In this document: positions 7,754-54,300 of the stretch, one piece after another
How the letters are laid out: each line of letters begins with the position of its first letter
Position numbering within the stretch: position 1 is the first letter of the stretch
Assembly (NCBI GenBank): GCA_963575645.1
Contig: OY754464.1
Coordinates: 4,154,001 to 4,218,000 of the forward strand
Length of the DNA stretch: 64,000 nt
Source: Xanthostigma xanthostigma
Taxonomy: Eukaryota > Arthropoda > Insecta > Raphidioptera > Raphidiidae
Direction: 5' to 3'
Notes under the pieces: generated by a model
What the model was told of the DNA's origin: nothing
What the model saw: only the letters and a program-made list of their open reading frames with translations
Database searches by the model: none
Made by a program: the position numbers and the translations under genes

Positions 7754-8091
7754 ATGCGTGCGTGTAAAACAAAAAGACGATCGCACAACATACGGTGTGC
7801 GTCAAAACAAAACACGAACTTGACATTAATGTATTGCGCGTGTTTTGTGTTGTTATCCTGTCAGACGTTGAAACAAGTGATCAGCAGCAACGGTGCTCCA
7901 GACAGTGACCTTGGCGACGATTTAAGTGGCGCCTCGACGCGATATTACAATGTCGGCGTTATGATGGCGTCGCATTTGGACTCACCTTTTGACTTGGAAC
8001 GATGCGGACCGGCTGTTGACTTGGCTCTGGAACTCGTCAACGACAAGTACCTAAGCGGACATAATATTAAACTCACCAAAGTTATGGGAAG
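7754..8091 (+). CDS. Cyclase exon 1: signal peptide and start of ligand-binding domain
   Basis: Starts at the ATG at 7754 (A at -3) and runs 338 bp to an AG|GTAAAT donor, leaving a split Ser codon. The basic N-terminus is followed by [14 protein letters not shown], a signal-peptide core. An in-frame ATG at 7829 would give a shorter, more typical signal peptide and is a real alternative start. The mature part ([16 protein letters not shown], then [14 protein letters not shown]) is the usual opening of an ANF-receptor domain. Confidence 0.88.
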
Positions 8092-20000: not shown

Positions 20001-23000
20001 AAAAAAAAGCCTGTATAATGGAAGAAAAGACTTACTATTCAAATAAAAATAATACTTTTAACGTCCGTTTTTCGACTTTAAGACAGAGGTCATTCGCACC
20101 ATTACTATTTTTCATCTATCACATTTCCCGTTATTTTTGACATTTTTTAAACTTCAACCCAATTAGCAATGGGCGAATGAAGGAATTTTATAGTACATTA
20201 GGATAGTAGGCAAATTTTTAGCTTAGGAGTTTGATAGGTAATCGGCCAATAAAGAACCATCTCGATATTTATCCGGAATTCTAGAGGGAAACCATGGAAA
20301 ACCTCAACAAAATGGCCGGTACAGGAATTACAGTTTTTCGGCGAGAGGCAGCACAAAAAAGTCCTGGCCACATCTGCCCCCGCCGGGATTCGAACCCGGT
20401 ACCTCCCGAATGCGAGTCTAGTGCTCTCACCACAACGCTAACTCGCTCGGTTATGACACAAATAAAGTGACGGTGTTATTTATTTTTTTAAGAACGTTCG
20501 ATGTACAAACTTTGACTGGAGTTGAAAAAAATACTTGAGACTCTCGGGTAAACTTATCTTATTATTTCTTTTTCTAATACAGTGCGTTCACTCCTCCTAG
20601 ATACAAAAAAAAATTAATAGTTTTTTATTCAACTCGAGACTTACTAACGGAAACTGCTGAGATATATTTTTTTGTACTTCAAACTTAACCAGAAGTGTAC
20701 ATGTTTTACCATTCCAACCCACAAGTGGGGAATGGTACTAGTTTAGGTCAAAAATCACTTTTCAAAAATTTTACAATATCTTTCCGTTTTGAGGTCCCCC
20801 GAATCCAAAAAACATATTTTTGAAAAATCTCTGTGCGTCTGTTAGTCTGTTTGTCTGTGAACACGATACAGGTCAAACGGATGAACGGATTGAAACCAAA
20901 TTTTGGGAGGATGTTTGGTATGCAAATATGAAGAGCCCTATTGTTTTTGGGGAAAATCGGCGCATGCGCAGAAGAGATATATGCTAAAATGGTGTTTTTT
21001 ATATAATAATGGTATACTTTTCATAACGGATTATTATTCTATTTATTTTTTTAACAAAGTTTTGTTAAAAAATTTTTTTCCTAAACTTTATAGTTTCAGA
21101 AATATTTTGAAAATAAAAAAAAATCAATCGCTCTTTTGTTTTATGGATCTGTCAGAAATAAACAGTTCGGCATGCTTTGATTAATGTTTACATGACATGG
21201 AACATATTATTATGTAGGTAACTATGGCAACGAATAGCAAATATATTGAATACTAGCGATTACCCGCGTCACCTCACACAATATCAAAAATTTTATTTTC
21301 TTTATTATAATCAAATGTCAACATTTTTGAAGTTGGAATGGTCCCGTCGCCCAATTGGCTGGAATTTTTTTTTTCAAATGGCAACGTATTTTTTTACATT
21401 TTCAAAATCCGTTTTTTTTTTCTCTATAGTAAATTCAAATAAAATTTTCATAAGGATACATAAGAAAATATTCGTGAAAAACGTTATGAATTTATTAATT
21501 AAATACACAGTAATTATTAATTATTACTGCGTATTGTATGTAAAATCCATGTTTTTGGACATATTTGAAAGCTTACTTAAAACGAACAGTTATACAGAAG
21601 GAAAGTAAAAACAATTGATGAACCGTACGTTCTTTTGTTTCAGCCGCCATCCGAAGGTGAACTGTCGGTCACTCCGGGAATCCTAGGACGCCTACACAGA
21701 TGGCGAAACGATTCATCTGTAAGTGCTTAATACATGTTTCTAATACCCTGAATCCTGAATCCATACTAATATTATAAAGTCGAAAGTAACTCTGTCCGTC
21801 TATTACCGTTTCACGCCTAAACCGCTGAACAGATTTCGATAAAATTTATCTAAAAAAAAAACACGAACCTTTTTTTTGATGTGTAACATCTTAGCTATGG
21901 GCAGTAATTTTGTAAATGCAGCGGAAATGCAAAATAGTCACTTCAAATTACATTAACATAAAATTGTGACTGCTTTTGCGAAATATTGTCCAAAGTTTTG
22001 AGACCACGTTGAACTTGTAATTAAAAATTACTTTTTGTCGTAAAGTTCATAAAAAGATTTAATACTACGGCAGATTTTTTTAGAATCTTAAATTACATTT
22101 CAGGCCGTACTAAAAACTGAAAAATATAATTTGTTACAATATAAAATATTCATGAATAGATCTTTAAATATATTTAGTATTATTAAAGGCTGCACCCAAC
22201 ACTAAACGGCGTTGTTAGAAGTTGAGATACAAAATGTTTTAACATAAATTTTATCAGTATAGTTGCGTATAGATTCTAGTCTGCACGCAGCTAATAAAAC
22301 ATTATTTAATTGAAAATATCTTTCACAGAATTGCCTGTGTAACAAAAAGCGATGTAACATGACGTTCCATTGTATAGTTTTATTGACATTTTCAATTCAA
22401 TTGTATCAGAGAAAAAATTTCTTGTAGAATGACAATTGACAGCTATTTTCATGTGTTACGATTAAAAACCGAAACGTTGTTAAACCTATGTGTACGGTAC
22501 ACCTAGATTTCTCCGCTGACAATCGACTGAAAGTATATATGTTACGGTTAATACAAGAAAGTAGTTTACTCGCGAATTAACCGGCTAATACCCGATTTAA
22601 CCAAACGTCAAGGACGTCAAGGATTGGTTAATTCGGGTATTAGCCGGTTAATTCGCGAATTAACTACTTTCTTGTATTAACCGTAACATATAGATGTTGG
22701 TTAATATAATTTTGAATTGCTTTTTGTTATATTTTTACGTTGCGACGAAAACGCATGAAATATCAGTTATATTTTCCCATTTACATATTTAAAATATTCA
22801 ATTGCACATTAAATTACCGCAGAGGGAAATTCTGGTTTAAACTATAGAGAAACTTCTAGTCGCATGTGTCATTGTTCAAACATGGATGTATTAAGATCGC
22901 TGCACACGAGGCTAGAAACGCTGCTATAAGTTCTGCTAGCCGTTAGGCTGGGTACGAAGCTGGAAATGACGTCACAGGGGCTATTTTCCCTGCTAGATTT

Positions 23001-26000
23001 GCTGCTAGGTATGAGCAAGAACCAATCAGGAAGCACTATCTTGTCACGCGGCCACTTGAACAAACGCCCACAAACCAACATGGCGTCATTCTGCTCAGAG
23101 TCAGACAACAGACACATTTTGCTCCGTGTTTATATTCGAACTGTCACTGCGCGCGCACCAAATCTGTTCACAAAACAAGCTTGAAATGTAGTCTCGTGTG
23201 AAGCGAGCACTTAACAGCAATCAAGAAAACCAGCTCTAGAAAACTATAGTAGGCAAATCTAGCAAGGAATCTAGCAGCGTTTCTAGCCTCGTGCGTGCAG
23301 CGGCCTTTGTACTGAGATAAGCGTGTTGGGGATCTAGTCGCATCGACTGTGAACACACACGTGGAAATATGGAAATATGTCTGCTGTTAAGAGATGCGTA
23401 TTTCGGTTAGATACTTACTGTTATGAATGTTGTTAGAACGAATTGTAACTGAAAGCTGCAGTAAATAGCCGAATTAAAATAATTTTAATTCGTGTCTTTC
23501 TTAGTAAGAACGCGAAATTACAAATGCTTGGAGATAATTCTTACTAGTAAGTACGCGTAATAACGAATTTAGGGTATTTCCGGTAACAAGGCAAGATATC
23601 AGAAGATATTGCGATTTGCGCATGGCCGTGGCTTTGTCATTATTTGCGCCATCGAAATTCGAAACAGCACATAATGAAAAGGATGTCAATATCTAACAGT
23701 AGTTTAAGTGCATTGTGTCGGTTGTGCTTAAAAAGTGAGGATACAGTGATAGACATATTTATGTTTTCAAACAGATTCAAACATCAAGTAGCTGATGTGA
23801 TCATGAAGGTTGCTCCCGTTCAGGTAAGTTAATTTTTTCATATCAAGCAAGATTTTTTAGCCAGTACTATTATTAGGGACGTATTACGTTACCATGATGT
23901 TAATTTTTATTTTAAATAGTTTTATAAATCAATAATTTCTGTGAAACATTACGTTTATCACAAAAATGTATTAATTATGAAATTTTCCCGATTCTCAGAT
24001 AACGAGGCGCGATGATATGCCGAATTTCATCTGTCAATTGTGTCACACTCAACTGGAAACCAGTTACAAGTTCCAGATGCAAATACTACAATCCGAGAAA
24101 AAACTACGACGCGATTTACAATTACACGCTTCTGACATACAAATCAAATCGGAATCTTTCATTCAGACTCCTATTGAGGATCCTTTTACTCACAATATTG
24201 ATCCAGATATCACTGTGAAGTGTGAATACTTAGAACTTCCCGATGTGCCAACAAATCCAGTAAACATAGTGAAGGAAGAAGTGTTTATAAAATCCGAACT
24301 TAATGATGAATTGATGGATGATAGCTTATTGAATTCAACTGAATCTGCTGAAAATACGGTGGAAAATGTATTTGAATTTGTTGATTTAGAAATCAGCAGC
24401 GAAAACATAAAAACGGATAGCCACACACCGGAGCGTAATCCCGCGAAAATCAAAACAAAAAAAATGCATTTGAATCAACGTAACATTTCTAACGTGGGTT
24501 TTGACGTTCCGCCCGATTCAGAGAAAAACAAGCATAAGCAAAGTGATGATAAAATACACCAGTGTGACGTTTGTAACGCGAATTTCAACAGATCGGGTAA
24601 TTTGAAAAGACATCGTCGTATACATACTGGTGAGAAACCGCATCAGTGCGACGTTTGTAGTATGTGTTTCGTGGAATCAAGCGATTTGAAAAAACATCAA
24701 CGTATACATACGCGCGAGAAACCATATCGGTGTGATCTTTGTGATAAGTGTTTCAGTCAACAGGGCACTTTAAACGCCCACAAACATACCCACACTGGTG
24801 AGAAACTGTATCGTTGTGACCTTTGTGATAAGAATTTCGGCACATCGGGCACTTTAACAAGACATCAACGTATACATACTGGTGAGAGACCTCATCAGTG
24901 TGATGTTTGTAATATGACTTTCAAGGAACCACACGATCTAAAGAGACATCAGCGTAAACATACTGGTGAAAAACGGCACCAGTGTGACGTATGCAAAAAA
25001 TGCTTTTATGAAACGGGCCATTTAAATTTCCATAAACGTACACATACAGACGATAAACCGTACAAATGCGACTTGTGTAATAAGTGCTTTACTATACCAA
25101 GCTATTTAAACGCTCATAAACGTACACATACTGGTGAGAAACCGTTTCAATGTGACGTTTGTGATAAGCGTTTCTTCCACTCACGCGGTTTAAAGACTCA
25201 CAAGCTACAACACTCGTGATATGTTTACTATATTTCTTGTTTTGTCATTTGTGTTAACGGCAAACTATTTTATAATGGTGAGAAATTTTAATTTAGTGAT
25301 TGATCTGTTTTCTATTATATATATTATGACCAAATAATACTATTAAAATGTGTTTATCCAAATAATATAAGCAGTATCTAATTAATACCTTATTCGCTGG
25401 ATGCGTGACGGCAGCACCGCCTACCGTTCGCAATTTTTCATGCTCTTATAACATTTTCTCAGATGGGAAATTTTTAAAATAGCTGTAACAATAATTGAAC
25501 GAAACCTTTAATTATTATATTTTTGAATTGTAACTCTTCTTCTCGTCTCGCGGGGTTTTTGTTATAAACAACCAATGACAAGTCATTAGCATTTTAAATT
25601 ATTCATACATAAGAAGTTTCACTTCGGTCGTGTGTGCCGCAATCATGTCTTTTTAAACGCTTTATATTAGTTTGGGTTGTAAATATGTGTGTATGTGTGT
25701 ATGTATGTATGTAACTAACTGTCCGTAACGGAATCTTTGAGCATAATTTTCACCAATTTCCCGAAGTCTGATTAATTTGAAACTTTGCATACGTATCAAG
25801 GACCGATGACAATGCAATAATTTGATAACAGTTTCCCATTATCCTTATTAGGACCCCCAGGATTAATAAATTCTTTTATAGATCCTCTGTAGTAAACGCT
25901 TTATTTTCACCAATTTCCCGAAGTCTGATTAATTTGAAACTTTGCATACGTATCAAGGACCGATGACAATGCAATAATTTGATAACAGTTTCCCATTATC

Positions 26001-29000
26001 CTTATTAGGACCCCCAGGATTAATAAATTCTTTTCCCGAAGTCTGATTAATTTGAAACTTTGCATACGTATCAAGGACCGATGACAATGCAATAATTTGA
26101 TAACAGTTTCCCATTATCCTTATTAGGACCCCCAGGATTAATAAATTCTTTTATAGATCCTCAAACTAAAAAGTGAAAAATAAAATATAGTTTAAAAAAA
26201 ACTAAAAAACACGCTTTATATCGGACTAAAAAGTAAAAAATAATTGTTTTAAAATAAGCTTAAAAAGCGTTGGGCGCTCGATGTACGAAAATGTGGAACA
26301 AAGCGCCCAACGCTTTTTAAGCTTATTTTAAAACAATTATTTTTTACTTTTTAGTCCGATATAAAGCGTGTTTTTTAGTTTTTTTTAAACTATATTTTTT
26401 TAATTTTTTCTTAAATTCGAAAAGGAAAATAAATACAATTTTTTTTATTTGATATAGTGATATTCAGAAAGTACATCGGGAATTGATTAAAGAATATTTT
26501 GAAAAGTTCGCGAGCTATGTATCTTAGATGTATGAGGTATATATATAATCGAGGAGTATGCAATTCATTTATTTTTGGTCCAAAATAGCGACGTAAAGAC
26601 CCCACAAACTAAGCGATTTTGTGCCTGCAATATTATGTACCCCGGTCGCATAAACGCATTGAGAAATTTTTGGGGTAGAAACGTTTGCCAGATATATTAT
26701 AGCCTTCTCGATTAGAACTAAGGACAATTAAGATAAACTACAAACAGCGTTGCATTTGTCACATGTTTGTTGTGGCTATCACTAATTGCGTCGTAAGAGC
26801 AGTGTTGTGACTTGTGAGATAGTGTTATAATTAACGTAATGAACAAAATATCGATAACTAGCCATGATGTAAGTACAATGTGTCGATTGTGCTTATCAAA
26901 TGGAAATGCAGAGATAGACATATTTATGTTTTCGAAAAGTCTTAAACATCAAGTAGCTGATGTCATCATGAAGGCTGCTCCCGTTCAGGTAAGTTCAGTT
27001 CATCATGTTTATATTTTTGCAAATAGTTTTTTAAGTCAATAATTCACAAATAATTCTATTTCTGTATAGATTAAAAAACATTTTTATTTGGAACTTTCTC
27101 AAAAAAATGTATGAATTTTGAAACATAATTTCACGAAGTAGTATTAATTATTCACGATTAAATAAATATTCTCCCATTTCTCAGATAAAGAGGTGCGACG
27201 AGATGCCGAATTTCATATGTCAGTTATGTCACACTCAACTGGAAACAAGTCACAAGTTCCAGATGCAAATACTACAGTCCGAGAAAACATTACGATGCTA
27301 TTTACAAGAATTACACGCCTCTGACACACAAATCAAGTCAGAGCGTTCAATTCAGACTCCTTATATCCATAATATTGATCCAGATATCGCTGTAAAATGT
27401 GAATACTTAAAACTTCCCGATGTGCCAACAAATTACAATCCAGTAAACGAAACGAGTGAAAAAATCTTTTTAAAATCCGAAATTAAAGATGAATCATTGG
27501 ATGATAATCTACCGAGCTCAACAGAATCTGCTGAAAATTTATTTAAAGCTGATTGTACTAAAATCAGTTACGAAAACAATATTGATGACATAGAAACTAT
27601 TTCATCAGCGTGTGATGATATAACAATAGTCGGTAAAGGCACAAATATAGATACATCGGAGAACGTCGAGTTTCGTCGTTCTGCTGATGTAACAAATTAT
27701 TTAGGTAAATGTAAAGAAATTACGAAAAATATTTCGAAGAACAAAACAAAAGAAATGAAATTGAATCAGTTAACGAAAAAGAAGCCTAAACGAACCAATG
27801 AGAAACCGTATCAGTGTGACGTTTGTAATATTAGTTACCAGGTGTTAAGAAGTTTGAGAAGACATCAGCGTATACACATTAGTGAATCAAAACACAATAT
27901 ACATACTGTTGAGAAACCGTACCAGTGTGATATTTGTAATAAGCGTTTCATTCAGCAAGGAATTTTAAATATTCACAAACGTACACATACTGGTGAGAAA
28001 CTATATCGATGTGACATTTGTGATAAACGTTTCAGCACTTCAGGCACTTTGAATCGACATCAACGTATACATACTGATGAGAAACCATATCCGTGTGATG
28101 TTTGTAATATGAGTTTCAAGGAATTGCACTACTTAAAAAGACACCAGCGTATGCATACTGGTGAGAAACCGCATCAGTGTGACGTGTGTAAAAAAAGATT
28201 TTCCGAGTCGTGCAATTTAAATGTTCATAAACGTACACATACCGGTGAGAAGCCATATCAATGTGATTGGTGTAGTAAGTGCTATAGTGTGTCCAGTCAT
28301 TTAAGTGTTCATAAACGTATACATACGGGTGAAAAGCCGTATCAGTGTGACGTTTGTAATAAATGTTTCTCCAACTTACGCAAGTTAAAAACTCACAAAC
28401 GTCAACACACGTGAGATGTTTACAACTATATACGTTGTTTGTAATTTGTTTTATCGCGATAAACTTATTTGATGTTGGTGAGAAATTTTTATTTAGTGAT
28501 TTTAGTGATCTGCTGTTCTATTCCACACAGTGTATAATAATATGTTCAAATAATAATAAATGTTTATTCAGTCAAAAGCAATATTTAATTTAATACGGCC
28601 TTATATTACAGAGACTATCAAAAACATAATTGTTGAAGAAGGGGCCAAGCTTGGTACATAGAAAAAACACATTCGCTGAAAAAAGAATTAAGATCTAAAT
28701 GTATACCAATAGTCCAAGAACGATCTTCGTGAAATATCTAAAATCTCAAACGGCTAAAAATTTCAGTGATCGTTCTGGGGGTTACAAGAAACTATTCTGA
28801 CTGTGAAAAAGTGTGCTCCGATTTGCAGTTAGGGTAGAAACCGCCCTTTAAAATTTTGTTTTCTAATTATCTCACAAACTATGAGATATATGAAAAAATG
28901 TTTCAATAAAAAGTTGTAGATTTTTATATTTGCTACGAAAAAGTGCTCCTCCCTCTTACCCCTATCTGCAATAGTTTACCCATAAATCGCCCCTAAAGGT

Positions 29001-32000
29001 AAAAAAATTGAAAATTCGTATTTTTCTCGGCTGATTCGGGTTTTTTGTGACATTTTGAGAAGAAATTATTCTTGGTATTTTCTTCGAAAAATGATTATTT
29101 TAGAAATTACAAAAAAACGAATATTACCCCCTTTGCACAATAGTGTAATCTAATTGTCGTGAATTATTATAAAGAAATCGTATCCATGATTTTAAAACGT
29201 AAAACAAACTTAAAATAAACGTTACCATAACTATAATTCAAAATCAAACTTGAGAATTCAAACAATTTGAATTATATTTTTACATTTATTTTAGACATCT
29301 ATTTGTACCGTTGTTTACGTGGCGTGTTTCTATGATTTTTTAAACAAAATTGTTGACATGGCCTGATAACTTTTAATATGAGAATAATAATTTTATATTT
29401 TTTCAAAAAGATTGCAAATGAAATTGCATAACATCCGAATTTTAATATTGATTTTCATAATTATTATTGTTTTTAATTTTCTGTATGTACTACCTACTTA
29501 AAAAAGTCTAAATCGATAGACGAAACGTCTTATATTAAATAAATCTAATATTTTTGACCACAGTACTGATAATTTTCCTGTTATTATCAAAAATTTAAAA
29601 AAAATGTTTTTCTACCAGTTATAATTAAATGAAATACGATTTTTATGAGATATATGAAAAAAGGTTTCGACAAAAAATTGTAGATTTTTATATTTGCTTT
29701 AAGAAAGTACTCCACCCTCTTACCCCTATCTACAATAGTTTACCCGTAAACCGCCCCTAAATGTGAAAAAAATGGAAATCATTTGTTTTTTCGGCAGATT
29801 CGGGTTTTTTGTGACATTTTAAGAAGAAAATAGTCCGCGTTTTCTTCGAAAAATGGATATTATAGAAATTACAAAAAGACGGTATCTATCCCTTTTGCAC
29901 GATACTGGAGTCTAATTGTCGTGAATTATTGACAAGAATAATTCGTATCCATGATTTTAAAATGTAGAATAGACTTAATAAAAGCGTTACCACGACTACT
30001 CAAATTCAAATCTGAGAGTTCAAAAAATTTTAATTATAATATTTGATTTTTCACATTATTTTTAGAAATTTATTTATACCGTTGCTTACGTGGCGTGTTT
30101 CTATGGTTTTTTAAACAAAATTATTGAAATGGCCTATGAAGTCACAGAAATGCCGCGCAAAAGAGACACGTTTCAATAATAATCAAAACATCTTGCCCAA
30201 AAAGAATATTTTTTTTTTAATTCAATAAGAATATTTTATTGAATGATTTCATGTGTTTGATAATTTTTAATATGATAATTATTGATTTTAAAATTATTTT
30301 CAAAAATTGTGCATATAATAGGTTCCTATATTATGTTATGAAATTGTGCTAACATTCGTTTTTTTATTATTTTTTATTTATTGTTAAAAATTTATAGTCA
30401 ACATAAACTTGTTACCATGTTTTTTGTCTTATGTTAATTGCTACGGTTAGTAATTAATGTTGATTTTCAAACCTACTTGAAAAAGTCTAAATCTATAGAC
30501 GTCTATAGATTTAGAGTTTTTCAAGTAGGTTTGAAAATCAAAGTCAATATTTTTGTCGAAACGTTAGCAATAAAAGAAAAGAATTATACCTATGTGTCCG
30601 CATTCCCGTTATTCATAATTATTGAAAATAATAATAATTATGTTGCGACATAATAATAATTATTTAGGATTCTTCTCTTGAAAAAAATAAGAATATTTTT
30701 ATGATCTTGTGACATAAAAATATTATGTAAGGGCATAATTTTATTATTTTTCGTCAGGATATTTTAAGTTAAAAAAATATTTTCAAAAAAAAATTCTGAA
30801 ATTGAAACGGGGTGCCATATCGCCTAACTTATATTAATTGCTATGGTTAGTAATTAATGTTGATTTTAATAATTATTGTTTTTAATTTTGACAGCTGACG
30901 ATGATATAGTGGGACAAGCTCCGACAATCATGCTATCTCTCTCACTACAGTATCGTGCAAAGGGGTGTCGTTTTTTTTGTAATTTCTATAATGTTAATTT
31001 TTCGAAGAAAACGCAAAGACTATTTTCTTCGTAAAATCTCACAAAAAACCCGAATCTGCCGAAAAAACAAATGATTTCCATTTTTTTCACATTTAGGGGC
31101 GGTTTACGGTTAAACTATTGTAGATAGGGGTAAGAGGGTGGAGTACTTTTTTATAGCAAATATAAAAATCTACAATTTTTTGTCGAAACCTTTTTTCATA
31201 TATCTCATAGTTTGTGAGATAATTAGAAAACAAAATTTAAAGGGGCGGTTTCTACCCTAACTGCAAATCGGAGCACACTTTTTCATAGTCAGAATAGTTT
31301 CTTGTAACCCCAAGAACGATCACTGAAATTTTTAGCCGTTTGAGATTTTAGGTATTTCACGAAGATCGTTCTTGGACTACAAGCTATCTTGGCAGACGAG
31401 CCATTTATGAATAATAGAAAATTTCAAAATATGAAAATTTTCTAACTGAACTTGGCACCCATTTAAATTTCAATACTTTTTTCCGCGAAGCTTTTCTTTC
31501 TACGCACTGAACTTGGCTTCTTTTTTCACATTTACGTTTTTGAAACTCGTCAGATATCATAACTGCCAGTGGGGAATCAGCGATAGAGTATCGAACTTGG
31601 ATCCTTTTTTCACATTATTTTATGTTTTAAATTTGTCAGATATAATAGCTGCAAGTACGGAATCTACGGTATACTGACACAGACTTGGTAATTGATCTAT
31701 TTTTATGTATTGTTCTTGTCTCATTCACTATTTACGTCTTTAGGCGTAAATACGAAATCCGTGGTGTACAAATTACAGTGTACCAAGGGTTCCAAGTTAG
31801 CCCACTTTTGTTGCAATCACGAGACAGGAATAATGAATTGCGCTGTAAAAGCACAGCGTGTGCTTGAGAGATAGGATTGACAATTAACATTAAGTATCGT
31901 AATGGATGAAGTATCAATAACTAGCCATGACGTAAGTGGTATGTGTCGATTGTGCTTAACAAGTGGGAATACAGTGATAGACATATTTATGTTTTCAAAA

Positions 32001-35000
32001 AGATTCAAACATCAAATAGCTGATGTGGTCATGAAGGTAGCTCCCGTTCAGGTAAGTGAATTTCTTACATGGAATAATAAAGCAAGTATTACATGCTGTT
32101 TATATTTTCACAAAAAAAATATTAATAATGAAATACTTATTTTAGAAAGTAATATAAATTATTTATGATTAAATAAATATTCTCTCATTTCTCAGATAAT
32201 TAGACGCGACAAGATGCCGAATTTCATCTGTCAATTGTGTCACACTCAACTGGAAACCAGTTACAAGTTCCAGATGCAAATCCTACAATCCGAAAAAACA
32301 CTACGAAGCCATTTACAACAATTTCACGCTTCTGACATACAAATCAAGTCTGAATGTTTCATTCAGACTCCTATTGAGACTCATTTTATCCATAATATTG
32401 ATCCAAATATCACTGTGAAGTGTGAATACTTAGAACTTCCCGATGTGCCAACAGATTATAATTCAGTAAATGAAATAAGCAGAGATATATTTTTAAAATC
32501 CGAAATTAAAGATGAACCTTTTAATGATAATCTGCCGAGCTCAGCGGAATCTGCTGAAAATATATTTAAGGCGGACTGTACTGAAACCAGCTATGAAGAC
32601 TCAAAAATCAGTATTGGTGACACCAAATTTGTTGACATGAGTGTCAACTGGAAAGAGCAAACGCCTATAAAAAAAATTAACGACAAAATGTCTTTAACAT
32701 CAAAAATCAAGGACGAAAAAATCAATTCATTAATTTCAACAGAATGTGATAATATAGATATTACCAGTAAAGACATCCACACATCGGAGAACGTCGAGTT
32801 TCTTCGTTCTGCTGATGTAACAAATTATGTTGATAAATGTAAAGAAAAGACCAAAAATACGGCGGTAAATCAGATGAAGAACAAAACCAAAGAAATGAAT
32901 TTGAATCAGTTTGACATTAGTAAAGTGGGTTGTAACGTTCCATCCGATTTAAAGAAAAAAAAGCCTAAACAAACTGGTGAGAAACCATATCAGTGTGACA
33001 TTTGTAATTATCGTTTCCAGACAACAAGAAATTTGAAAAGACACCAACGTATACATACAGGAGAGAAACCATATCAGTGTGACGTTTGTAATAAGAGTTT
33101 CAAGGAATCGTACGACTTAAGAAGACATCAGCGTATACATCAGAATATACGTATACATACGGGTGTGAAACCGCATCAGTGTGACGTGTGTAAAAAATAC
33201 TTTTCTGAGTTACACCATTTAAATGTTCATAAACGATCGCATACTGGCGAGAAACAATTTAAATGCGATTTGTGTAGTAAGCAGTTTACTACATCGAGTC
33301 ATTTAAAAGTTCATAAACGTGCACATACTGGTGAGAAACCGCATCAGTGTGACGTTTGTAAAAAATGCTTTTCTGAGTTGCCACATTTAAATGTTCATAG
33401 ACGGATACATACTGGTGAGAAACCGTATCAATGCGATTGGTGTAGTAAGTGCTTTACAACGTCAAGTCATTTAAACGTCCATAAACGTACACATACCGGT
33501 GAGAAACCATATCAATGTGACGTTTGTGATAAAAGTTTCATTGATGCAGGCACTTTGACAAGACATCAACGTACACACACTGGTGAGAAACCGTATCAAT
33601 GTGACATTTGTAATAAACATTTCTCTCACTTACATAACTTAAAAACTCACAAGCTTCGACATTCGTGATATGTTTACTACTATATTACTTGTTTTATCAT
33701 TTGTTTAAACGACATAAACTATTTGATAATGGTGAGAAATTTTAATTTAGTGATTGATCTGCTTTACCATTATATATATGTACAAGTAATACTATTAAAA
33801 TATGTTTATCTAAACATAACAAGTAGTGAAATTAATACTGCCTTATTCGCTAGGTACGTAACGGCAGCACCGCCTACTGTCCGCAATTTTCATGCTATGA
33901 CATTGTGTCAAATGAGCATTTTTTAAATCAGTGCTCCGCAACCTTTTCTCACCTACGACACACCAAAATTCTTGCTAGATTTCCGCGGCACACCGAAAGC
34001 TAAAATATATCACTAGATATCTTCTTTGGTTTTTTTGTAACACTTGTGCTGGGTTCTTCATCATCTATACGTGAAGACCGATCTTTTCCACGTAAAAATT
34101 TATCCATATTTAAAGGGGTATAAAAATAAATATGTATCACACGAACACTAACCACATACAATTCAGCAACACAATTAATAGTAATTATCGTTAATGGTAG
34201 AAACTTATTTATTTAACTTTGTATTGTTAAAATAGTGACAGCTCTGCACTGTTGCGACGACTGAGGCGACAACCGTCTCAGATTGACACGACGGCAAACG
34301 TGCGTTCTACACACTGTGTTTTTTCTTCATATTAAAATAACAATTGAAAAAATTAGTAACAATGTACCAACAAATAAAAATTTTCAAACATTGAAAAAAA
34401 ATAGTGCTAATTTATTTCAGTTACATTTTAAGGATACCAGAATTTTTTGAGCGATAACTAAGAAATTAAAAATTAATTCTTCAAATTTTGCAAAATATAA
34501 AATGTCAAATACACTGAATTTGACCGCGGCACACCTGTATCCGGCTCACGGCACACCAGTGTGCCACGGCACACCGGTTGCGGAGCACTGTTTTAAATAA
34601 CTAAGAATAATGAAACGGACCGTTAATTATATATATTTGAAATGGAACCCATCTTCCCGTCTCGCGGGGTATGTATTATATAAACAACTGATGACAAGTC
34701 GTTCGCATTTTAAATGATTCATACATAAAAAGTTTCACTTCGGTCGTGTGTGCCTCAATAATGCCTTTTTTAATATGTAATTAAAATGTGAGAAGTGAAA
34801 ATATTTTTAAAAATTGGTTGTCTGTAAAGTCGGTTTACGGACGATAGTTTTACGTGATAACGTATTCCGTAATACATAACCTAAATTCTACATATAATAA
34901 TTATAATAATTCGAATCTATGATATTCCATCTTTCGCTTCAAATTTAGGTTAATTTTATGTATTAAAATACTCACCACATATAATAATAATTGTTTTTTT

Positions 35001-36349: not shown

Positions 36350-36384
<35 letters not shown>

Positions 36385-39300: not shown

Positions 39301-42300
39301 CAATTTATAAGACGTTATCACGTCAAAAACAGAAAGGAAAATAAATACTTTTTATTTGAAACAGTAATATTTACAAAGTACATGGGAAATGGGTTACAGA
39401 ATATTAATTAAAATTCGCGTGCTATGTATCTGAGATGTACGAGTAGGTCTCATCGAGGAGTGTGCAATTCATTTATTTTTAGTCCAAAATAGCGACGTAG
39501 AGACTCCATAAACTAAGCAAATTAAATTTTAACATCTGCAATGTTGTGTACCCCGATCGCATAATGGCATTAGGAAATTTTTGAGCTTGAAACGTTTGCT
39601 AGATATATTAAAGCCTTCACGATTAGAACTAACGACTATTAAGTTTTTCAAAAATGAGTTATATTCGCGATAAATACGAAATTAACGGTGTACGAACTTA
39701 GAACTACAAACTTGTTGTATTTGTCAATTTTTGTTGTGGCAATCAATCACTAGAGTAGCAGCGTGAGTTTAGTGAGATAGTGTTGTAATTAACGTAATGA
39801 ACGAAATATCAATAACTAGCCATGATGTAAGTACAATGTGTCGATTGTGCTTATCGAGTGAAAATGCAGAAATAGACATATTTATGTTTTCGGAAAGTCT
39901 CAAACATCAAATAGTTGATGTAATCATGAAGGTGGCTCCCGTTCAGGTAAGTTAGTTTCTTGATATCAAATAATAAAGCAAGTCTTACATGATGTATATG
40001 TTTTCACAAAAATATATCCACTATGAAATACTTATTTTACATAGTATTATAAATAAATAAATGTTCTCTCATTTCTTAGATAATTAGACGCGATGAGATG
40101 CCTAATTTCATCTGTCAATTATGTTACACTCAATTGGAAAGAAATCACCAGTTCCAGGTGCAAATATTACACTCCGAGAAAACGTTACGATGCTATTTAC
40201 AACAATTACACGCTTCTGACAAACAAATCAAGTCTGAATATTTCATTCAGACTCCTAGTGGGGATCCTTTTATCCAAAATTTTGATCCAAATATCACTGT
40301 GAAGTGTGAATACTTAGAACTTCCCGATGTGCCAACAAATTATAATCCAGTAAACGAAGTGTTTATAAAAACCGAACTTAAAGATGAATCGAGCTCAACA
40401 GAATCTGCTGAAAATGTATTTAAGACGGAAGGTAATGTATTAAGCTGCGAAGACTCAAAGATCAGTATCGGTGACACCGAATTTATTGACATGAGTGTCA
40501 ACTGGAAAGAGCAAACGCCCACAAAAAAAATTGACGACAAAATGTCTTTCAATTCAAAAATCAAAGACGAAAGTATCAATTCATTAATTTCAACCGAATG
40601 TGATAACATAGACGATATTTCATCAACATCTGTGAACTTCGAGTTTCTTCGTTCTGCTGATGTAACAAATTATACTGGTAAATATAAAGAGAAGACCAAC
40701 AATACGGTGGTCAATCAGATGAAGAACAAAACAAAAGAAATGAATTTGAATCAGTTTGACGTTAGTACTGTGGGTTGTAACGTTCCATCCGATTTAAAGA
40801 AAAAAAAGCCTAAACAAACTAATGAGAAACCATATCAGTGTGATATTTGTAATTGTCGTTTCCAAACATCAAGGAATTTGAAAAGACACCAACGTGTACA
40901 TACAGGAGAGAAGCCATATCAGTGTGACGTTTGTAATAAGAGTTTCAACGAATCGTACAACTTAAGAAGACATCAGCGTGTACATCAGAATATACGTATA
41001 CATACTGGTGTGAAAGGGCATCAGTGTGACGTGTGTAAAAAATACTTTTCTGAGTTACACCATTTAAATGTTCATAAACGATCGCATACTATTGAGAAAC
41101 AATTTAAATGCGATTTGTGTAGTAAGCAGTTTACTACATCGAGTCATTTAAAAGTTCATAAACGTACACATACTGGTGAGAAACCGCATCAGTGTGACGT
41201 TTGTAATAAATGCTTTTCTGAGTTGCCACATTTAATTGTTCACAGACGGATACATACTGGTGAGAAACCGTATCAATGCGATTTGTGTAGTAAGTGCTTT
41301 ACAACGTCAAGTCATTTAAACGTCCATAAACGCACACATACCGGTGAGAAACCATATCAGTGTGACGTTTGTGATAAAAGTTTCATTGATACAGGCACTT
41401 TGACAAGACATAAACGTACACACACTGGCGAGAAACCGTATCAATGTGACATTTGTAATAAGCATTTTTCTTACTTATATCACTTAAAAACTCACAAGCT
41501 TGGACACTCGTGATATGTTTACTACTATAATACTTGTTTTGTCAATTGTTTTAACGACAAACTATTTGATAATGGCGAGTAATTTTAATTTACTCATTGA
41601 TTTGCTTTAACATTATATATATGTACAAGTAATACTATTAAAATATGTTTATCTAAACATAACCAGTAGTGATATTAATACATCCTTATTCGCTGGGTGC
41701 GTAACGGCAGCACCGCCTTCCGTCCGCAATTTTCATGCTATGACATTGTGTCAAATGAGCATTTCTTAAATAACAAAGCATAATGAAACGGACCGTTAAT
41801 TGTATATGTCACTGGGATATTGCCAAACCCGTGATATTGTAATTTCACTAGTGAAATTACAATATCACGATTGACAAAGAGTCGTGATATTGTAATTTCA
41901 CTAAGTGAGATTATAATATCACGGGTTTGACAATATCCCGGTGACATATATATGTTACCGTTAAATCCCGTTTTTAGTTAGAATGCATATTTACTAGTTA
42001 AAACTAGTTTTCACTAAACGCCCTCGTTAAAACTATAATTTCCTAGTAACAACTAGAATTTACTGATTTAGAAGATCGATTTTTAGGTAAAACTAGTTTT
42101 AACTGTGAGCGTTAGACAAAACTAGTAGTAACTAGAAAATTGTGTTTGAGAGGATTGATTTAATAGAATGAAGCCTTGATTAAAAAATAAACATTATTAC
42201 ACATTAATTATTAAAATATTTATTGAGAACATTTGTGAATAGTAACATCTGAACAACGTTGATATTAATTAGTAATATAAAAATATCATTCTTCCTTATG

Positions 42301-45300
42301 GAGATCAAACATCCATATTGGCAACTTTTATTAAAGTCTTACACATTTAACAAAGAGATTAATAGCGAACAAAAACAATTAGTATTCCTCTTAGTCGTTT
42401 GAAAAAGAAACATTATATGATAACATATTATTTAATACAATATTTATTTAAATATTTACGAATTGAAACATCCCAAACAAATTTAATATTTAAAGTTAGT
42501 AACATAACACAGTAAAAGAACATTTTTCCTTATGAAGATCAAACAGCCATATTGGCAATTTTAATTAAAGTTTTATTGGTCTTTCTTGCTATTGCAGGGC
42601 AAACTATCGTGGCATTTTGAGTAACATAGGTTGCCTTTTTTCTTACAAAAGTACCTTTTTGACATACAAATTTTTTTACATAGGTACATTACGCGACCTC
42701 TAAACTTTGTGGTGTGGAATAAGTTTTAACTGCTTGGTACCGTTAAAACGCGTTTTGACTAGTTAAAACTAGTTTTAACTGATATTCATTTTTACCAACA
42801 GTAAATTCTAGTTTTAACGAGGGCGTTTAGTGAAAACTAGTTTTAACTAGTAAATACGCGTTCTAACTAAAAACGGGTTTTTACGGTAACATATATATAT
42901 TTGAAATGCAACCCATCTTCTCGTCTCGAGGGGTGTGTAATGTGTATTATATTAACAACTGATGACAAGCCATTCGAATTTTAAATTATTCATACATAAG
43001 AAGTTTCACTTCGATCGTGTGTGCCTCAATCATGCCTTTTTTAATTTTTAATTAAAATGTGAGGAGTGAAAATATTTAAAAAAACAGAAAGGAAAATAAA
43101 TACTTTTTGACGTGATAACGTCTTATAAATTGATGAAACACCAATCTTATAAATTGATGAAACACCGGCTGCATGTACGAAAAAGTGTCACATTCCGAAA
43201 TGTGTCACGTTCCGCCTGACCCTGTGCGTGCAAGCGAGAGCGCAGTATAAGCGATAGAGAAGCACGATCGGCCCAAGTTTGACAGCTACAAAAATTTATT
43301 AATTAAAGATCACAAGACACAAACTTCCAATAGACTGCCACAGTTCGCTCGTACATATTATACTTACAGGGAGTGAAAAATCCACACCACCCGACCGTCC
43401 GTTTATTAAAACTGCGTGTATTTTGAAAACGGTTCATTATATTTAAAAACCGTTTCTACAGTTGGTTAGAACTCTAATTTTACTATTTAAATATGTAAAA
43501 ATAAATGTTTGGAAACGTATACGTATAATGTGAAAAATAAAAAAAGTTATTTTTCAACACTTTACGAGTATGGTTCAATGTTTCTTTATGACGTTATCAC
43601 GTAAAACTATCGTCCGTAAACCGACTTTACAGACAACCAATTTTTTTTATTTGACATAGTAATATTTAGAAAGTACATCGGAAATGGGTTATAGAATATT
43701 AATTAAAATTCGCGTGCTATGTATCTGAGATGTATGAGTAGGTCTCATCGAGGAGTGTGCAATTCATTTATTTTTAGTCCAAAATAGGGACGTAGAGACT
43801 CCATAAACTAAGCAATTTAAATTTTAACATCTGCAATGTTGTGTACCCCGATCGCATAATGGCATTAGGAAATTTTTGAGCTTGAAACGTTTGCTAGATA
43901 TATTAAAGCCTTCACGATTAGAACTAACGACTATTAAGTTTTTGAAAAATGAGTTATACTAACGATAAATACGAAATTAACGGTGTACGAACTTAGAACT
44001 ACAAACGTGTTGTATTTGTCAATTTTTGTTGTGGCAATCAATCACTAGAGTAGCAGCGGGAGTTTAGTGAGATAGTGTTGTAATTAACGTAATGAACGAA
44101 ATATCAATAACTAGCCATGATGTAAGTACAATGTGTCGATTGTGCTTATCGAGTGGAAATGCAGAAATAAACATATTTATGTTTTCGGAAAGTCTCAAAC
44201 ATCAAATAGTTGATGTAATCATGAAGGTGGCTCCCGTTCAGGTAAGTTAGTTTCTTGATATCAAATAATAAAGCAAGTATTATATGACATATGTTTTCAC
44301 AAAAATATATCAACTATGAAATACTTATTTTACATAGTAATATAAATAAATAAATGTTCTCTCATTTCTTAGATAACTACACGCGATGAGATGCCTAATT
44401 TCATCTGTCAATTATGCTACACTCAATTGGAAAGAAATCACCAGTTTCAGGTTCAAATATTACACTCCGAGAAAACGCTACGACGCTATTTACAACAATT
44501 ACACGCTTCTGACAAACAAATCAAGTCTGAATGTTTCATTCAGACTCCTATTGAGGATCATTTTATCCATAATATTGATCCAAATATCACTGTGAAGTGT
44601 GAATACTTAGAACTTCCCGATGTGCAAACAAATTATAATCCAGTAAACGAAGTAAAGGAAGAAGTGTTTATAAAAACCGAACTTAAAGATGAATCGAGCT
44701 CAACAGAATCTGCTGAAAATGTATTTAAGACGGACGATACAGAATTAAGCTGCGAAGACTCAAAGATCAGTATCGGTAAAACCGAATTTGTTGACATGAG
44801 TGTCGACTGGAAAGAGCAAACGCCCACAAAAAAAATTAACGACAAAATGTCTTTCAATTCAAAAATCAAAGACGAAAGTATCAATTCATTAATGTCAACC
44901 GAATGTGATAACATAGACGATATTTCATCAACATCTATGAACTTCGAGTTTCTTCGTTCTGCTGATGTAACAAATTATACTGGTAAATATAAAGAGAAGA
45001 CCAACAATACGGCGGTCAATCAGATGAAGAACAAAACAAAAGAAATGGATTTGAATCAGTTTGACATTAGTAACGTGGGTTGTAACGTTCCATCCGATTT
45101 AAAGAAAAAAAAGCCTAAACAAACTAGTGAGAAACCATATCAGTGTGACATTTGTAATTGTCATTTCCAGACATCAAGAAATTTGAAAAGACACCAACGT
45201 ATACATACCGGAGAGAAACCATATCAGTGCGACGTTTGTAATAAGAGTTTCAAAGAATCATACGATTTAAAGAGACACCAGCGTATACATCAGGATATAG

Positions 45301-48300
45301 GTATACGTACAATAGAGAAACCATTTCAATGTGACGTGTGTAAAAAATGCTTTTCTGAGTTGTCTCCTCTAAATGTTCATAAACGATCACATACTGGTGA
45401 GAAACCGTATAAATGCGATTGGTGTAGCAAGTGCTATATTACGTCAAGTCATTTAAACGTTCATAAACGTACACATACCGGTGAGAAACCATATCAATGT
45501 GACTTTTGTGATAAAAGTTTCATTGATGCAGGCACTTTGACAAGACATCAACGTACACACACTGGTGAGAAGCCGTATCAATGTGACGTTTGTAATAAAA
45601 GTTTCGTTGAAGCAGGCACTTTGGCGAGACATCAACGTACACACACAGGGGAGAAGCCGTATCAGTGTGACATTTGTAATAAGCATTTCTCTCACTTACA
45701 AAACTTAAAAAGTCACAAGCTTCTACATTCCTGACAAGTTTAATACTATATTATCGGGATAAACTTTTTTTATATTGGTGAGATATTTTAAGTGAAACTT
45801 TTATTGGATTGTAGACACTTATCCATCACGATTAATTATAAACAACAATATTCACATGAATACACGAATAAAAACATGTAAACACTGTACAGCACTTGCC
45901 CGCATGACAGACTGGCTATGTCTATGTGTTATACATACTACACGGTCAGCTGATGCTAACCATGGGCGCCGCCATATTGGCCTTGGCTGCTCTACCGAGC
46001 GCCTGCTCCGAGCGCCTTTCACTTTACCCCTACTACGCGGCCGCCTGTAATGCGACATGTAACAGACGGCCAGAAAAATTCGGGGCGATAGACTTAAAAA
46101 AATTTGGTTCCTTTTTATCTTGGGTGTATTTTTTAAAACTACCTGGTCGATAATTTTTTTACTAACATTCTCACCGCGTATTTCAACCATGCGTCAATTT
46201 TTTTTAATAATGCATTATTTTTCCTGATAATTTTAATAATTTGATATGATTTTCTACAGCAATTAACTTGCATTCTTAGAGGTCAGATATTAATAAAAAT
46301 ACCTTCATAAATAACATATAATTATTTTTTATAAAATATTGAAATAAATTTAAGAAAATTTTTATTTTATGATAATACACGTCTGATTAAAAAATCTGTT
46401 TGTTCGATTTTTGTCCCATAACACAATCCCATTGTCCGTGTACGCAAATTTCGAAACAGCCGGAATAGGTAAAGTTTTTGTTTGGTTTTGGCAGCTAATA
46501 TTAAAAGCTACTGAACCGATTTGAAAAAATCTTTCACTAGGTATTTAAAAACCTATAGGCTATAATATATTACGCTACGACAAAAGAAATATGAGCATTG
46601 AGCGAAAATTTAAGACACACGATCCCGTTATAATTCATTTGAACGAGCGAGGTGGTGAGTCGCAATTTAACAAGTAATACTTTCTGCAACCCAACAAGCA
46701 TTTCTGTTATACCAAATGCGGAGCTATGAATAGTCCATGAGTATATGGTCGAAGTACATGTTATATAACATAAGTCTGTAGGTGTATATCGCCAAGAGAA
46801 TGTTATTTAATTAGTTAATTCTATGGTCTGGTGATATGACTAATTAGTACGTAATTGTGTAGTTTTCAATAGTCATCCATCAAACTCTCTCTCTCACACG
46901 TATAGAAATGTACAAATATCGTAGCTTCAGAGAATCTTGCGGCTAGTAATATAGATTTTATGACGTCCCTGCTAAGCTCCCGGTTTTAACTAGCAACTTT
47001 ACGAACGGTAGACTCCAAAGTTATTTAGACTCCACCTGTTTGCCACCGAGAGAGACGACACTGGCATTTTTTGTTTCAGCTTTCGAGTTTGTCAAAACCT
47101 CGTTGAGTTGAGCAACGAGTTACGAGAAATCTCGACAAAATTTTGAAATATTATGGAATATTCTTTATCAAAAATAAAGCATTGAAATTAATAAATGGGG
47201 CATATAATGCGTTACATTAATTAATTCTTAATCATTTCAGATTTTTCTGAGCGATCCTATTAGTGATAAGGGCAGGGGACAGCAATTTTTGAACGTTTTT
47301 GACGTGATAACGTCTTATAAATTGATGAAACACCGGCTGCATGCACGAAAAAGTGTCACGTTCCGCGCACGATCGGCCCAAGTTAGACAGCTACTAAAAT
47401 TTAGGTTATGTATTATTCGAGCGGAATACGTTATCACGTGAAACTATCGTCCGTAAATCGACTTTACAGACAACCAATTTTTTTTCTCGGAATATGTTTA
47501 AAAAAATGAAAAACTACATCAGACAAGGAATTGAAATCCAACCTCGAAATTCTGTGCTTATAAAAGCTACAAGAGCAACAGCAAAAAAAAATGCAAAGAC
47601 GGCGATCGCATAACTCCTTTAGTTACCACTAAAAAAACGCCGTCTGTGCACTTTTTTTTGCTGTTGCTCTTGTAGCTTTTATATAAGCACAGAATTTCGA
47701 GGTTGGATTTCAATTCCTTGTCTGCCTCGAAATTCATTTTTTTTCGACGTCTTAGGCACAAAATTTCGAGCTTGATTTCAATTTCTTGTCTACCTCGAAA
47801 TTCTTTTTTTTTTGTTATAATCATGAGATCCAGTCGCCTCAAGTTTTTGAATTTAGCACAGAACGAAGTTTTTACTTCTCCGAAGTTTTTTTAAGATTTC
47901 ACGTCTTTTTCCAAAGTGTGAGACATTATTTTTATTTTTCCTCCAAATTAAACATAATATGTGCATATAGATAATTAATGTTAAAAATGTAAATAAAAAA
48001 AAGGATTGTTTGAAAATCCAATTTCTTATTCACTATAAAAATATATATTGTTGAAACTGCGAACTAATAGGGTTTTTTTTTATCGATGTAACTTACGCTT
48101 ATTTAAAATAAAAAAAAATAAAAATTTAAAAAAAACAAAAATATATGAGAAATATATTATATATAATATATAAATATCAAGTGGAAATAAAATGGAGTAG
48201 AAAAAAAATGTTCAATGATGTTGGCGGGAATCGAACCCTAGACCCTGCCATTACTGGCTCGGCCACCGGGCGGTAACAGTACATTGCTATTATTGTCGTA

Positions 48301-51300
48301 TAGAAGCACTATATGGGTGATACGAAAATTTGTAAGACGAAAATCACGTGGTCACAGAACTATAAAACTTGGAAACTGGCCTTTTATACACGGCGTTATA
48401 TGGGACAGAGGCAAAATCAATGTATAAAAGAATCTGTTAAAGATTCGTCGGCATTTAGCACAGAAAAGAATCTCTAACGAGATTCTTCGATTACTTCGAA
48501 AAAAGAGACGGAGATTATTTTTTGCATCTTTGTTGCGTTCTGTCACCGCTCATTGGGTAAATGAATAATGTTTGGTACAGTAATATTAATATTATTAATA
48601 TTATGCATATAGGTTTTAACTTTTTTTTGTGATAAAACACGGACAATATTATTTTTTGCCCTCGTAATTTTATTATCGGTATTTTATGTCCGAAAAGAAG
48701 CCGTCGGTCGTCTGTAATGCCTGACGAGCCAGCACTGGGTGTCTGTTACGAAGCAAAGCTCATTTACATATTATGCGTGTACAACATTTACATTTAGATG
48801 TAATATATGGCGCATTTTCCACAGTCATATTCTGTCCAAATTACGTGTCTCTGCATAAATCACAGACTTCACAAAACCATTATTCGATTGTCACTTTTTT
48901 TTATAAAATTGTCCATTAAAACCACAATTAAAATGAATCAAATTTGCATGACAATAAGCGAACGTTTATTAATTTTCAAGAGTATAATGTACAATCAAAA
49001 TTCTTCGATTGATACCATTAAGGAGGTTGATGCGTTACAGTCCCGATCAAAAGTAAGTCGAATTCTAAATCGGAACTTTTCCATAATAAATTTTTACAAA
49101 AGGTTATAAGTCGATGATACGAATAAATTATTGTCATAAAGGCATAAATAAATAATTTTTTTTAATATTAATTATTTTAGTATTTTACTTAATGGACTAA
49201 CTTTTGAATTTTTTGTACAATTAAAGTTAGGTTAGAAGAAATAAATTTATGTAAATATCTGTCTTTTACATATTTTTTGCAGTAAATAATTAAAAAAAGA
49301 AATTAGAAGTAATAAAAATTAAAATTAAATCATTAAAAAGTTGAAAATTCAGTTAAAATTGTTAAAATTGTCAAGAATAAAAGTCCATAATCGAAAAGTC
49401 CTAAGGTTTAATATATTTTTTTATTAATTCCTATTTCCTAATTAAATTGGAAAAAATTATTTGGTTATTTGCAAAAAATTATCTTCGTAAAACGACTCAA
49501 CCTCCTTAAGTCAGTCAACGCCTATGCATAAGTACCAAATTTTCTATCTACCAAATTTTATGTTCAAATAGTTTCTGCGACCAAGTACATAATATTAACG
49601 AAGATTCCTAGTTATAAATTTTTTTGATGTGAAACGTCTATTGCCGCGCCGTGGCAGTAAAACCATGCCAAACGGCATAACTTATACTGGCATGACCCCT
49701 CTACGCCAACGCTCTCGACTCCTTTGTGTGCGCGCGCGTGTATACTATATTATACTTCGTTGCTTCTCTGTGTGAATGCGTTGTTATATGTTGGTAAGTT
49801 ACATTACAGGGTGAAATGGGCAACATAACACCTGGGTTCTGAGGGGCAAACCTCATCTATAACTGCGGAGCGATAAATGTTGAGCAGCTTAAAGCGTCGC
49901 CAAATTTAAATTCGCATGTGATTGTTATTTAGTCTGTACTTGCTGGATAGAACGTTTTTTTTCAATTTGAAGCTCGTAAAATTTTCTTTAACTTTCGTTC
50001 TATATACACTCTTTAAAATTCTTTTTCGAACAACACGCTCCGGAAAAGTTAATTCTTTCGAAAAAAATATTTTTATCACACATTTTTGTGCCCGTCCTGG
50101 GCACCTCCCTAGCTACGGCACTGGACTGTATGGACATTTTTGCAATTTATATTTCATGACATTTTTTTTTCAATTTTTTTTGTTGCTATTGCCTACTGTG
50201 GATTTAATGTAGTATAAACAACTGCACTATAAATAGGCCCTTTTCTGTATTTTGTATAGTCATGTAATTTTTTATATGTTTTTTTCAAAGGTAGGTAATA
50301 CATTCGTCAAAAATCAAAAAGACCATAAAGACTTGCATCGACGAATTTATATTTTACTCGTCAGAATTGGTTTGTTTTATATTCCCAGAGGTGGTGCGGG
50401 GTGTGCGATACGAGCGCGAGAACGGAATTATATATTATTGTCGATGATCGCGTAGGCTTTGGATCCAATAATAACGACTGTCAAATGTCAATAGTGCCGA
50501 CGCTATATCGAAATTCTATTGACATTGCATGATGGCACAATACGTTTTATCAGTCAGGGTTGAAACTTGTCAAACTTTCATGACATCTTAGCATGGCTTA
50601 ACATCAAACGTCTTAAGTTCTTAACATCATTTTTAAATGCTCACAGTCAGGAGCCCAACCGTTTCATATATTTGTAACTAGATTTTACCCGCGACTTCGT
50701 CCGCGTGAAAGCAATGTGTACAATTGATATAATTGATTGAAAAATTAATAAATTCAAGCAATCCTAACAATATTTCGACCCAGATGAGAAACTTATAAAC
50801 GTGTACCATTACAGAATTTGGGCGCACCAAGATTTCGCATTAAAAATACCTGAACACCAACTTTCAACCTTAATTTATGAGAAGGCATTTAACCACCTCA
50901 GAGGTTAATTTTTGAAAAAAAAATTAGTTTATCCCTTTCCCCAAAGTTTAAACCATCGTTTTTTGGCTCTCCTGTAAAGTTTACCAAATGTCACATACTT
51001 TTTGGGCATTAACCATCGATATGTCAAAAGTTACATAACATTATGTTTGAAATGAACAAGTAATTGCAATCTAACAAAAAAATACGATTTTCCGTTTTAT
51101 TTTCCGCATTTTTGAAGTAAAACTTCTTTACGCACGCTTGACTTGGGGAGTAAGCTGGTGAATGCCTGACGAGAGATTTACGGAAGTGTGATCGGGCGAG
51201 GCGAACGGAAGTTGAGAGGGAGATATAAGTTACTGAAGATAGAAAGAGGATGACAAATACTTCACTGGCTAGTGGCGCCATCAGGTGGCCGAAAATATAA

Positions 51301-54300
51301 GCAGTACTAACAATAGAATGACACATATCGGGTAACAGAAAGAAGTTTTGTAAACCGACTTTAAATAATATTTCATAAGGATTTACGCTTAAAATCCAAC
51401 GAGAGCTAAGTAATTGCAATGTATTACTTTTGTTTTCATTATCTTTATGTTTATATTTGTTCATTTCGTCTTGAACAATTTTATAAATTAATATTTTGTC
51501 CAATACAGTAAATATTCTACGTTTAAAGTGAATAAAATAGTAAATTCATTTTAAAGTTCATATTTTGTGTATTTTCGGGTGAATAATAACAATATTATGG
51601 CAGGAAGAAGTTTTACTTCAGTCGTGTGATCTAAAGAACACTCGCCTTTTTGATGGCACTCGGAATCGGGACTCCAAGTTTTTATGTCGCCGGCTCTGTT
51701 TACATGTTATATTTCTACAGAAACACTGTAAAGGTCAATTCACACATGCGGTACTGTGCGCCGACTGTGCACCGACTGTGTCGATTTGAACTAAATCGAT
51801 CACCTGAAGTTTCCATTGAAAATGTATTGAATTGCACTGTTTAATTCACACATGTAGGTCTAGGCACAGACTGTGCTCTGACTGTGTTGCTTCCGACCGC
51901 TCTGAAAGCGATTTCTCAAGGTTACGGTCCGACACGGTAGGAGCACGGTACGTGCATAACCGCTCTAGTGAGAACTATTGGAAGGCTAATCTTTCCTCTA
52001 CGGATATAGATCTTCTCCACTTTGTGTTCTTTTTTTGTATGTCTGGTTTTACAAGTTTCAGCAGATTGTCAAATTTCAAGAAAGTCATACGAAAGTATCG
52101 AACAAATTGTTCTGGATCATCTTTAAGTCGAGCAAATGCTGTGTGAAATTCTCCTTCTTCCTCCCTAGCTCTCCATAAACGGTTAATCCAAATCTTCCTC
52201 TTTCTTTTTTTCACCTCTTCCGTTAATACTAGATACGCTCCGCATGCTATCACCACGTCCTCCTCTCTTGAATCCATGATACAAACCACAAAACACACAG
52301 TTTTGTGATACAAACAACCAACTGTGGCACGTAATAACATGGTTGGTGTGAATATGCACAACACAACACAGTCGGTGCACGGCTACGACACAGTCGGCGC
52401 ACAGTACCGCATGTGTGAATTGACCTTAACACATCATTAGTAGAATAGAATATGTAGTATCTGCAACCCTGTTTTAATTTCGCAACGTACCTCGTCGGTT
52501 GTTCATGAGTCGCATTCTATATATAATTGCATAGCGCAGTTTAATTAACCGTGTCCGTACGTGACAAATCCAGGTTTAAATAATAATTATACACGTGTCT
52601 AAACCCAATGTATAGAAAATACATCTAAATGTATAGATATGCCCATTGCGCTATATGTATTTGTGCAGGATTAGATTTAACATTCAATGTATTCAACGGA
52701 TCAATAAAATTCAGTAGGAGGCGCCATTGCCTTCAAACGAGCACGGTTTGTAATGCAACATTAACTCACGAAAGCGTGATGAATCAACGGCAACCGTCCT
52801 CGAATCGCGCTCGGAATTGTAGGGTGTTCATTTTGAGGCCCTCAATTTGTTGACATCTATACTAATATATAAAGCTGAAGAGTTTGTTTGTTTGTTTGAA
52901 CGCGCTAATCTCAGAAACTACTGGTTCAAATTGAATAAAATTTTTTTTTGTTGGATAGCCCATTTACCGAGGAAGGCTATAGGCTATTATATAATATTAC
53001 GCTACAACCATTAGGAGCGGAGCTTTAATGAAAAATGTTGCAAAAAGTATCTCAAAAATAAGCTTCTATTCATGTGAAATGCACTAAGTAGATATACTCA
53101 TATTAGTGATGAAAGAAGACAACCTCAGGTAGATCAATCGGTAGCGCATGCGACTGTCAATATCAGGGTCGTGGGTTCGAGCCCCACGTTGGGTGAATGT
53201 ATTTTTTTTTTTATTTTTTACATTGCTTTCTTCTAAGGCTTACATTTAAATTTATTTCAATTTTATTTAATTCATTCAAAAAAAATATTAGTTAAAAAAA
53301 GTTTAAATACTGCTCATTATCGACAAAAACTTTTGAACGGTAACTCTGATCATCATGAAATTTGGACACAACATTCATCTCGGTAAACTAAGATGAATGT
53401 GTGTACTCATGTCCCTTCCTTCCCCATTCGTTCTTTTGCACCCAGGTGAAACCGGGCGGGACCGCTAGTTTAGAATAAAATACATTTTATGAAATTACAT
53501 CCGCGCCCAATTTATTGAATGAGCTTATAAACGCAGTTCCGGTGTCGATATAATATTTTTTATTTTTTGTGGGTTTTTTTTCAGGTGGGCCAAGGAATTT
53601 TCCGAGAGAAGAGCAAATATCCAACGTTGACGCGTATGTCGTACTGCCAGTGCAGACTCATATTGGTGTTTTCGAGCATATTCAAACAATTTAAATGGAG
53701 CCATATCGCCCTCATCTTAGATCGATCGGATCTTTTTTCTCTGACAGTTGGTAAGGAACTTAAAATGTCTTCATAGAAAAAAAAAATACAACACTTTAGA
53801 CAATTTTTAACCACAATAATAATTTTATTATTAAATTGTACATGTAGGTACATCAACAAAAACTATTTTTGTTGGTAATTGCTCTAGTGCTCTGTATTAT
53901 TAGTAATTTGTATATTTTTGTAATTATCGTAACTTTTTATTTCGCTAGGTAGGATGTTTTAAAAATGCACTTGAAGAAATACAAACTCAATTAATCATTT
54001 TTCTTTACAACTCGTACTAATAATGTTAATAAATAAAATTATCGACCAATTTTTCAGACATGAGACAATATATTAACAAAAAATATAATTAATACATTAA
54101 CGTTTCAATCCGGATTTGGACCTTCTTTAGAACTGACCTAAAAAATATAAAAAATAATTAATATTTAATTTCTAATTCGCTTTATATAAAATTCTTTCAA
54201 AATATTAATTAGAATCAAAATATTGAAAAAATAATAACAAACAATTTTTTTTATTATCAAAGTTTTGAATAATATTATTACTTTAATTAAATTCAAATTT

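Follow-up and report, generated by a model that had tools for sequence, protein, structure and literature searches.

A receptor guanylate cyclase intron contains five ZAD-C2H2 genes

A 64,000-nucleotide stretch of chromosome 1 of the snakefly Xanthostigma xanthostigma (hereafter, the window) carries a receptor guanylate cyclase gene whose third intron holds an array of five ZAD-C2H2 zinc-finger genes. An earlier note on this DNA had described, in about 31.9 kb between cyclase exons 3 and 4, five intact ZAD-C2H2 genes of two exons each that share the host's strand, and gene models and Pfam matches bear this description out. The coding parts of all five genes are complete within host intron 3, which makes the array a nested cluster. 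Each gene has an N-terminal zf-AD domain (PF07776; 46.5-52.8 bits against a Pfam cut-off of 28), with the predicted zinc-binding cysteines C15, C18, C62, and C65 arranged as CxxC pairs in all five. Their C-terminal C2H2 fingers number 8, 7, 8, 8, and 7 by pattern, in array order, and Pfam zf-C2H2 also matches in every gene.

The host was modeled exon by exon on the + strand as a gene of 19 coding exons and 1,139 residues. Its ATG lies at 7754 and its stop codon at 67033 when numbering is continued from the window into the downstream sequence; the last five exons lie beyond the window. Pfam recognizes, in order, an ANF_receptor domain at residues 83-457, two kinase models that fall within 601-851, and a guanylate cyclase domain at 920-1108, and one membrane span was read by eye in exon 10, giving the domain order of a receptor cyclase. 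The host is a putative Gyc76C orthologue. The host exons and the array are arranged as follows.

7754-8091, + strand: cyclase exon 1 (coding part, from the ATG; gene model), GT donor, phase 2 after
12805-12970, + strand: cyclase exon 2 (gene model), one genome match, at its own locus
21644-21718, + strand: cyclase exon 3, 75 nt (gene model), phase 0 on both sides, donor TCT/GTAAGT
21719-53584, + strand: host intron 3, 31,866 bp, GT-AG, phase 0, carrying the array
23674-25219, + strand: ZAD-C2H2 gene 1 (gene model, Pfam, residue pattern)
26839-28414, + strand: ZAD-C2H2 gene 2 (same evidence)
31902-33668, + strand: ZAD-C2H2 gene 3 (same evidence)
33669-33928, + strand: segment directly 3' of gene 3
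39349-39796, + strand: segment directly 5' of gene 4
39797-41513, + strand: ZAD-C2H2 gene 4 (same evidence, plus hybrid comparison)
44092-45734, + strand: ZAD-C2H2 gene 5 (evidence as for gene 1)
53585-53750, + strand: cyclase exon 4 (gene model)
54923-55042, 55112-55221, 55530-55718, 58101-58236, + strand: cyclase exons 5-8 (gene model)
58840-59076, 59495-59579 (exon 10, membrane span), 60334-60622, + strand: cyclase exons 9-11 (gene model)
61347-61523, 62507-62666, 63089-63247, + strand: cyclase exons 12-14 (gene model)

The exons flanking the array belong to one gene

The host is one gene. The join between exons 3 and 4 falls at residues 193/194, inside a single ANF_receptor match, and the frame continues across it. 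When the receptor part was compared with the structure of natriuretic peptide receptor A (1dp4; E 1.4e-48), two ordered stretches aligned, one on each side of the join. The unaligned gap between them, which takes in exon 3 together with the first part of exon 4, is what would be expected for a loop without a counterpart in the mammalian receptor. A whole-genome search with the residues of host exons 2-6, in which 6 candidates were scored, gave 5 matches, one per exon and all at the host locus; no second locus for these exons was found. The genome also contains 66 stretches matching other cyclase catalytic domains, none of whose receptor parts rose above threshold in the exon 2-6 search. As the matches are confined to a single locus and the window contains no N, neither half of the cyclase has another evident partner in the assembly.

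It is therefore scarcely credible that the flanking exons derive from two genes or that an assembly error placed the array between them. Such readings could draw on the length of intron 3, the longest of the host's 18 (31.9 kb versus 8.7 kb for the next), and on the fact that the analysis covered the assembled sequence only. They would have to accommodate, however, the unbroken frame and domain match, the ordered alignment of both sides to 1dp4, the absence of exon 2-6 matches elsewhere in the genome, and the quality of the underlying assembly, which was built from HiFi and Hi-C data with a QV of 66.1, a contig N50 of 18.0 Mb, and 58 gaps (PMC11871431).

Origin of the array and of a hybrid gene

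In a tree with seven relatives from outside the intron, the five array genes cluster together; the tree omits one neighboring chromosome 11 ZAD gene (read only) and a second record of one gene already used. The earlier note's proposal of a tandem expansion within the host intron receives partial support: given this grouping, a single founder probably multiplied inside the intron. Because tandem copies inherit their strand from one founder, the shared strand of the array amounts to one coin-toss rather than five.

Gene 4 is a mosaic, resembling gene 5 in its 5' flank, ZAD, and linker and gene 3 in its fingers and 3' flank, with a breakpoint located in finger 1. On sequence comparison, it is a hybrid of gene 5-like and gene 3-like parts. 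Unequal crossing-over inside the intron could have produced it, and the mosaic layout is the one that such crossing-over would predict.

The ZAD family is large in this snakefly. Of 1,338 candidate stretches genome-wide, the 150 that were scored (some with stops) all exceed the zf-AD cut-off, with chromosomes 11 and 12 the richest; none of the five array genes is among these 150, so the true number must be higher. The nearest full-length relative outside the array lies on chromosome 11 (C11:7819183), beside further related ZAD exons. In the surrounding region (C11:7805501-7825500), the 4.6-kb intron of this relative contains open reading frames (ORFs) that we take to be transposase-like, and an ORF near its neighbor is presumably copia-like.

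That the array is instead the ancestral site, from which the chromosome 11 relatives were derived, seems unlikely. Several genes do reside in the intron and the comparison was confined to one species' genome, but many more ZAD genes lie on chromosomes 11 and 12, and the nearest relative is itself flanked by related exons. A separate question is whether the array is partly expressed through its host, with transcription from the cyclase promoter entering the array and splicing of exon 3 to a ZAD exon 2, or of a ZAD exon 1 to exon 4, yielding in-frame chimeras that serve either a regulatory or a coding function. Since all relevant intron phases are 0, the predicted chimeras are in frame both ways: all five joins of host exon 3 to ZAD exon 2 are open, as are all five that lead from a ZAD exon 1 into host exon 4. 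The donors are also suggestive, reading CAG/GTAAGT in 5/5 ZAD first exons and TCT/GTAAGT in host exon 3. Phase 0 is ordinary in this gene, however, occurring in 7 of the 18 host introns; the products would carry half a ZAD and would join a secreted N-terminal part to nuclear fingers, and the case is built from genomic sequence. We consider such host-driven expression quite improbable.

A broader proposal would combine these elements: the cyclase intron would be a site where ZAD genes arise and reshuffle, uniting the 5' side and ZAD of one gene with the fingers of another, and would also give rise to regulated, in-frame cyclase-ZAD chimeric mRNAs, with the host transcript and the nested factors controlling each other. 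In this full form, we regard the idea as speculative and very unlikely to hold.

Species context and other sequence features

The earlier note had assumed a lepidopteran source; the DNA comes from a member of Raphidioptera. The mitochondrial contig has the gene order trnI-trnQ-trnM, which is ancestral for insects. Ditrysian Lepidoptera sequenced by the time of one survey have trnM-trnI-trnQ, and ghost moths retain the ancestral order (PMC3463433), so that mitochondrial order alone rules out only the derived group. The assembly comprises 623.30 Mb in 28 scaffolds, including chromosomes of 84.21, 25.13, and 18.36 Mb and a mitochondrion of 17.75 kb (PMC11871431). Nuclear partial matches to mitochondrial COX1 occur at C6:1195571 and C2:16906869.

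Exon 3 is flanked by an 8.7-kb intron and a 31.9-kb intron, and the cyclase without it retains an open frame of 1,114 residues. A 438-bp dispersed repeat occupies 28710-29147, with an inverted copy (88.6%) at 30946-31379. Of 436 candidates genome-wide, the 40 that were scored, the repeat at 28710-29147 among them, all show 96-100% identity, which points to recent activity. Host intron 4 contains a tRNA-Met (CAT) match antisense to the host (54397-54469, - strand; 65.6 bits), either a candidate gene or part of a repeat, and a second tRNA match at 2835-2892 is marginal (30.4 bits; cut-off 29). A 122-bp tandem repeat (3.2 copies, 59833-60220) lies in host intron 10. Upstream of the host are a 156-bp tandem repeat (4.6 copies, 4335-5049) and a reverse transcriptase fragment (RVT_1, E 1.2e-13; 6122-6916, - strand), a retroelement remnant.

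Comparison with known nested clusters

This locus was not found in print in the literature listings searched, and the Ensembl annotation of the assembly may already show it. Nested genes account for about 6% of the Drosophila total and often lie antisense to their host (PMC3786989). The GMC oxidoreductase cluster of fly, mosquito, bee, and beetle, situated mostly in one large flotillin-2 intron, resembles the snakefly array as a tandem-duplicated family largely within one big host intron (PMC1891103). Its members, however, are enzymes, lie almost all on the strand opposite the host, and have kept their nesting in four distant species, whereas the snakefly genes encode a DNA-binding protein family, all run along the host strand, and are known from one species. 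The TipE cluster likewise places several related genes in one insect host intron, the last of CG18675; the cluster is old and held together across insects, although in silk moth and flour beetle it no longer lies there, and the available text mentions no hybrid gene comparable to gene 4 (PMC3240667). Among dipteran ZAD-ZNF genes, clusters of the Cucoid clade share with the array a tandem ZAD-C2H2 arrangement and common intron positions, and in Hermetia one ZAD gene, Hil_5, lies in an intron of its own paralogue Hil_4 (PMC9810180); the snakefly array instead has five genes in an intron of a receptor gene to which they are unrelated. Intron-nested gene clusters are thus already known in insects, and the snakefly array differs from them in its host, its uniform host-strand orientation, and its visible hybrid gene.
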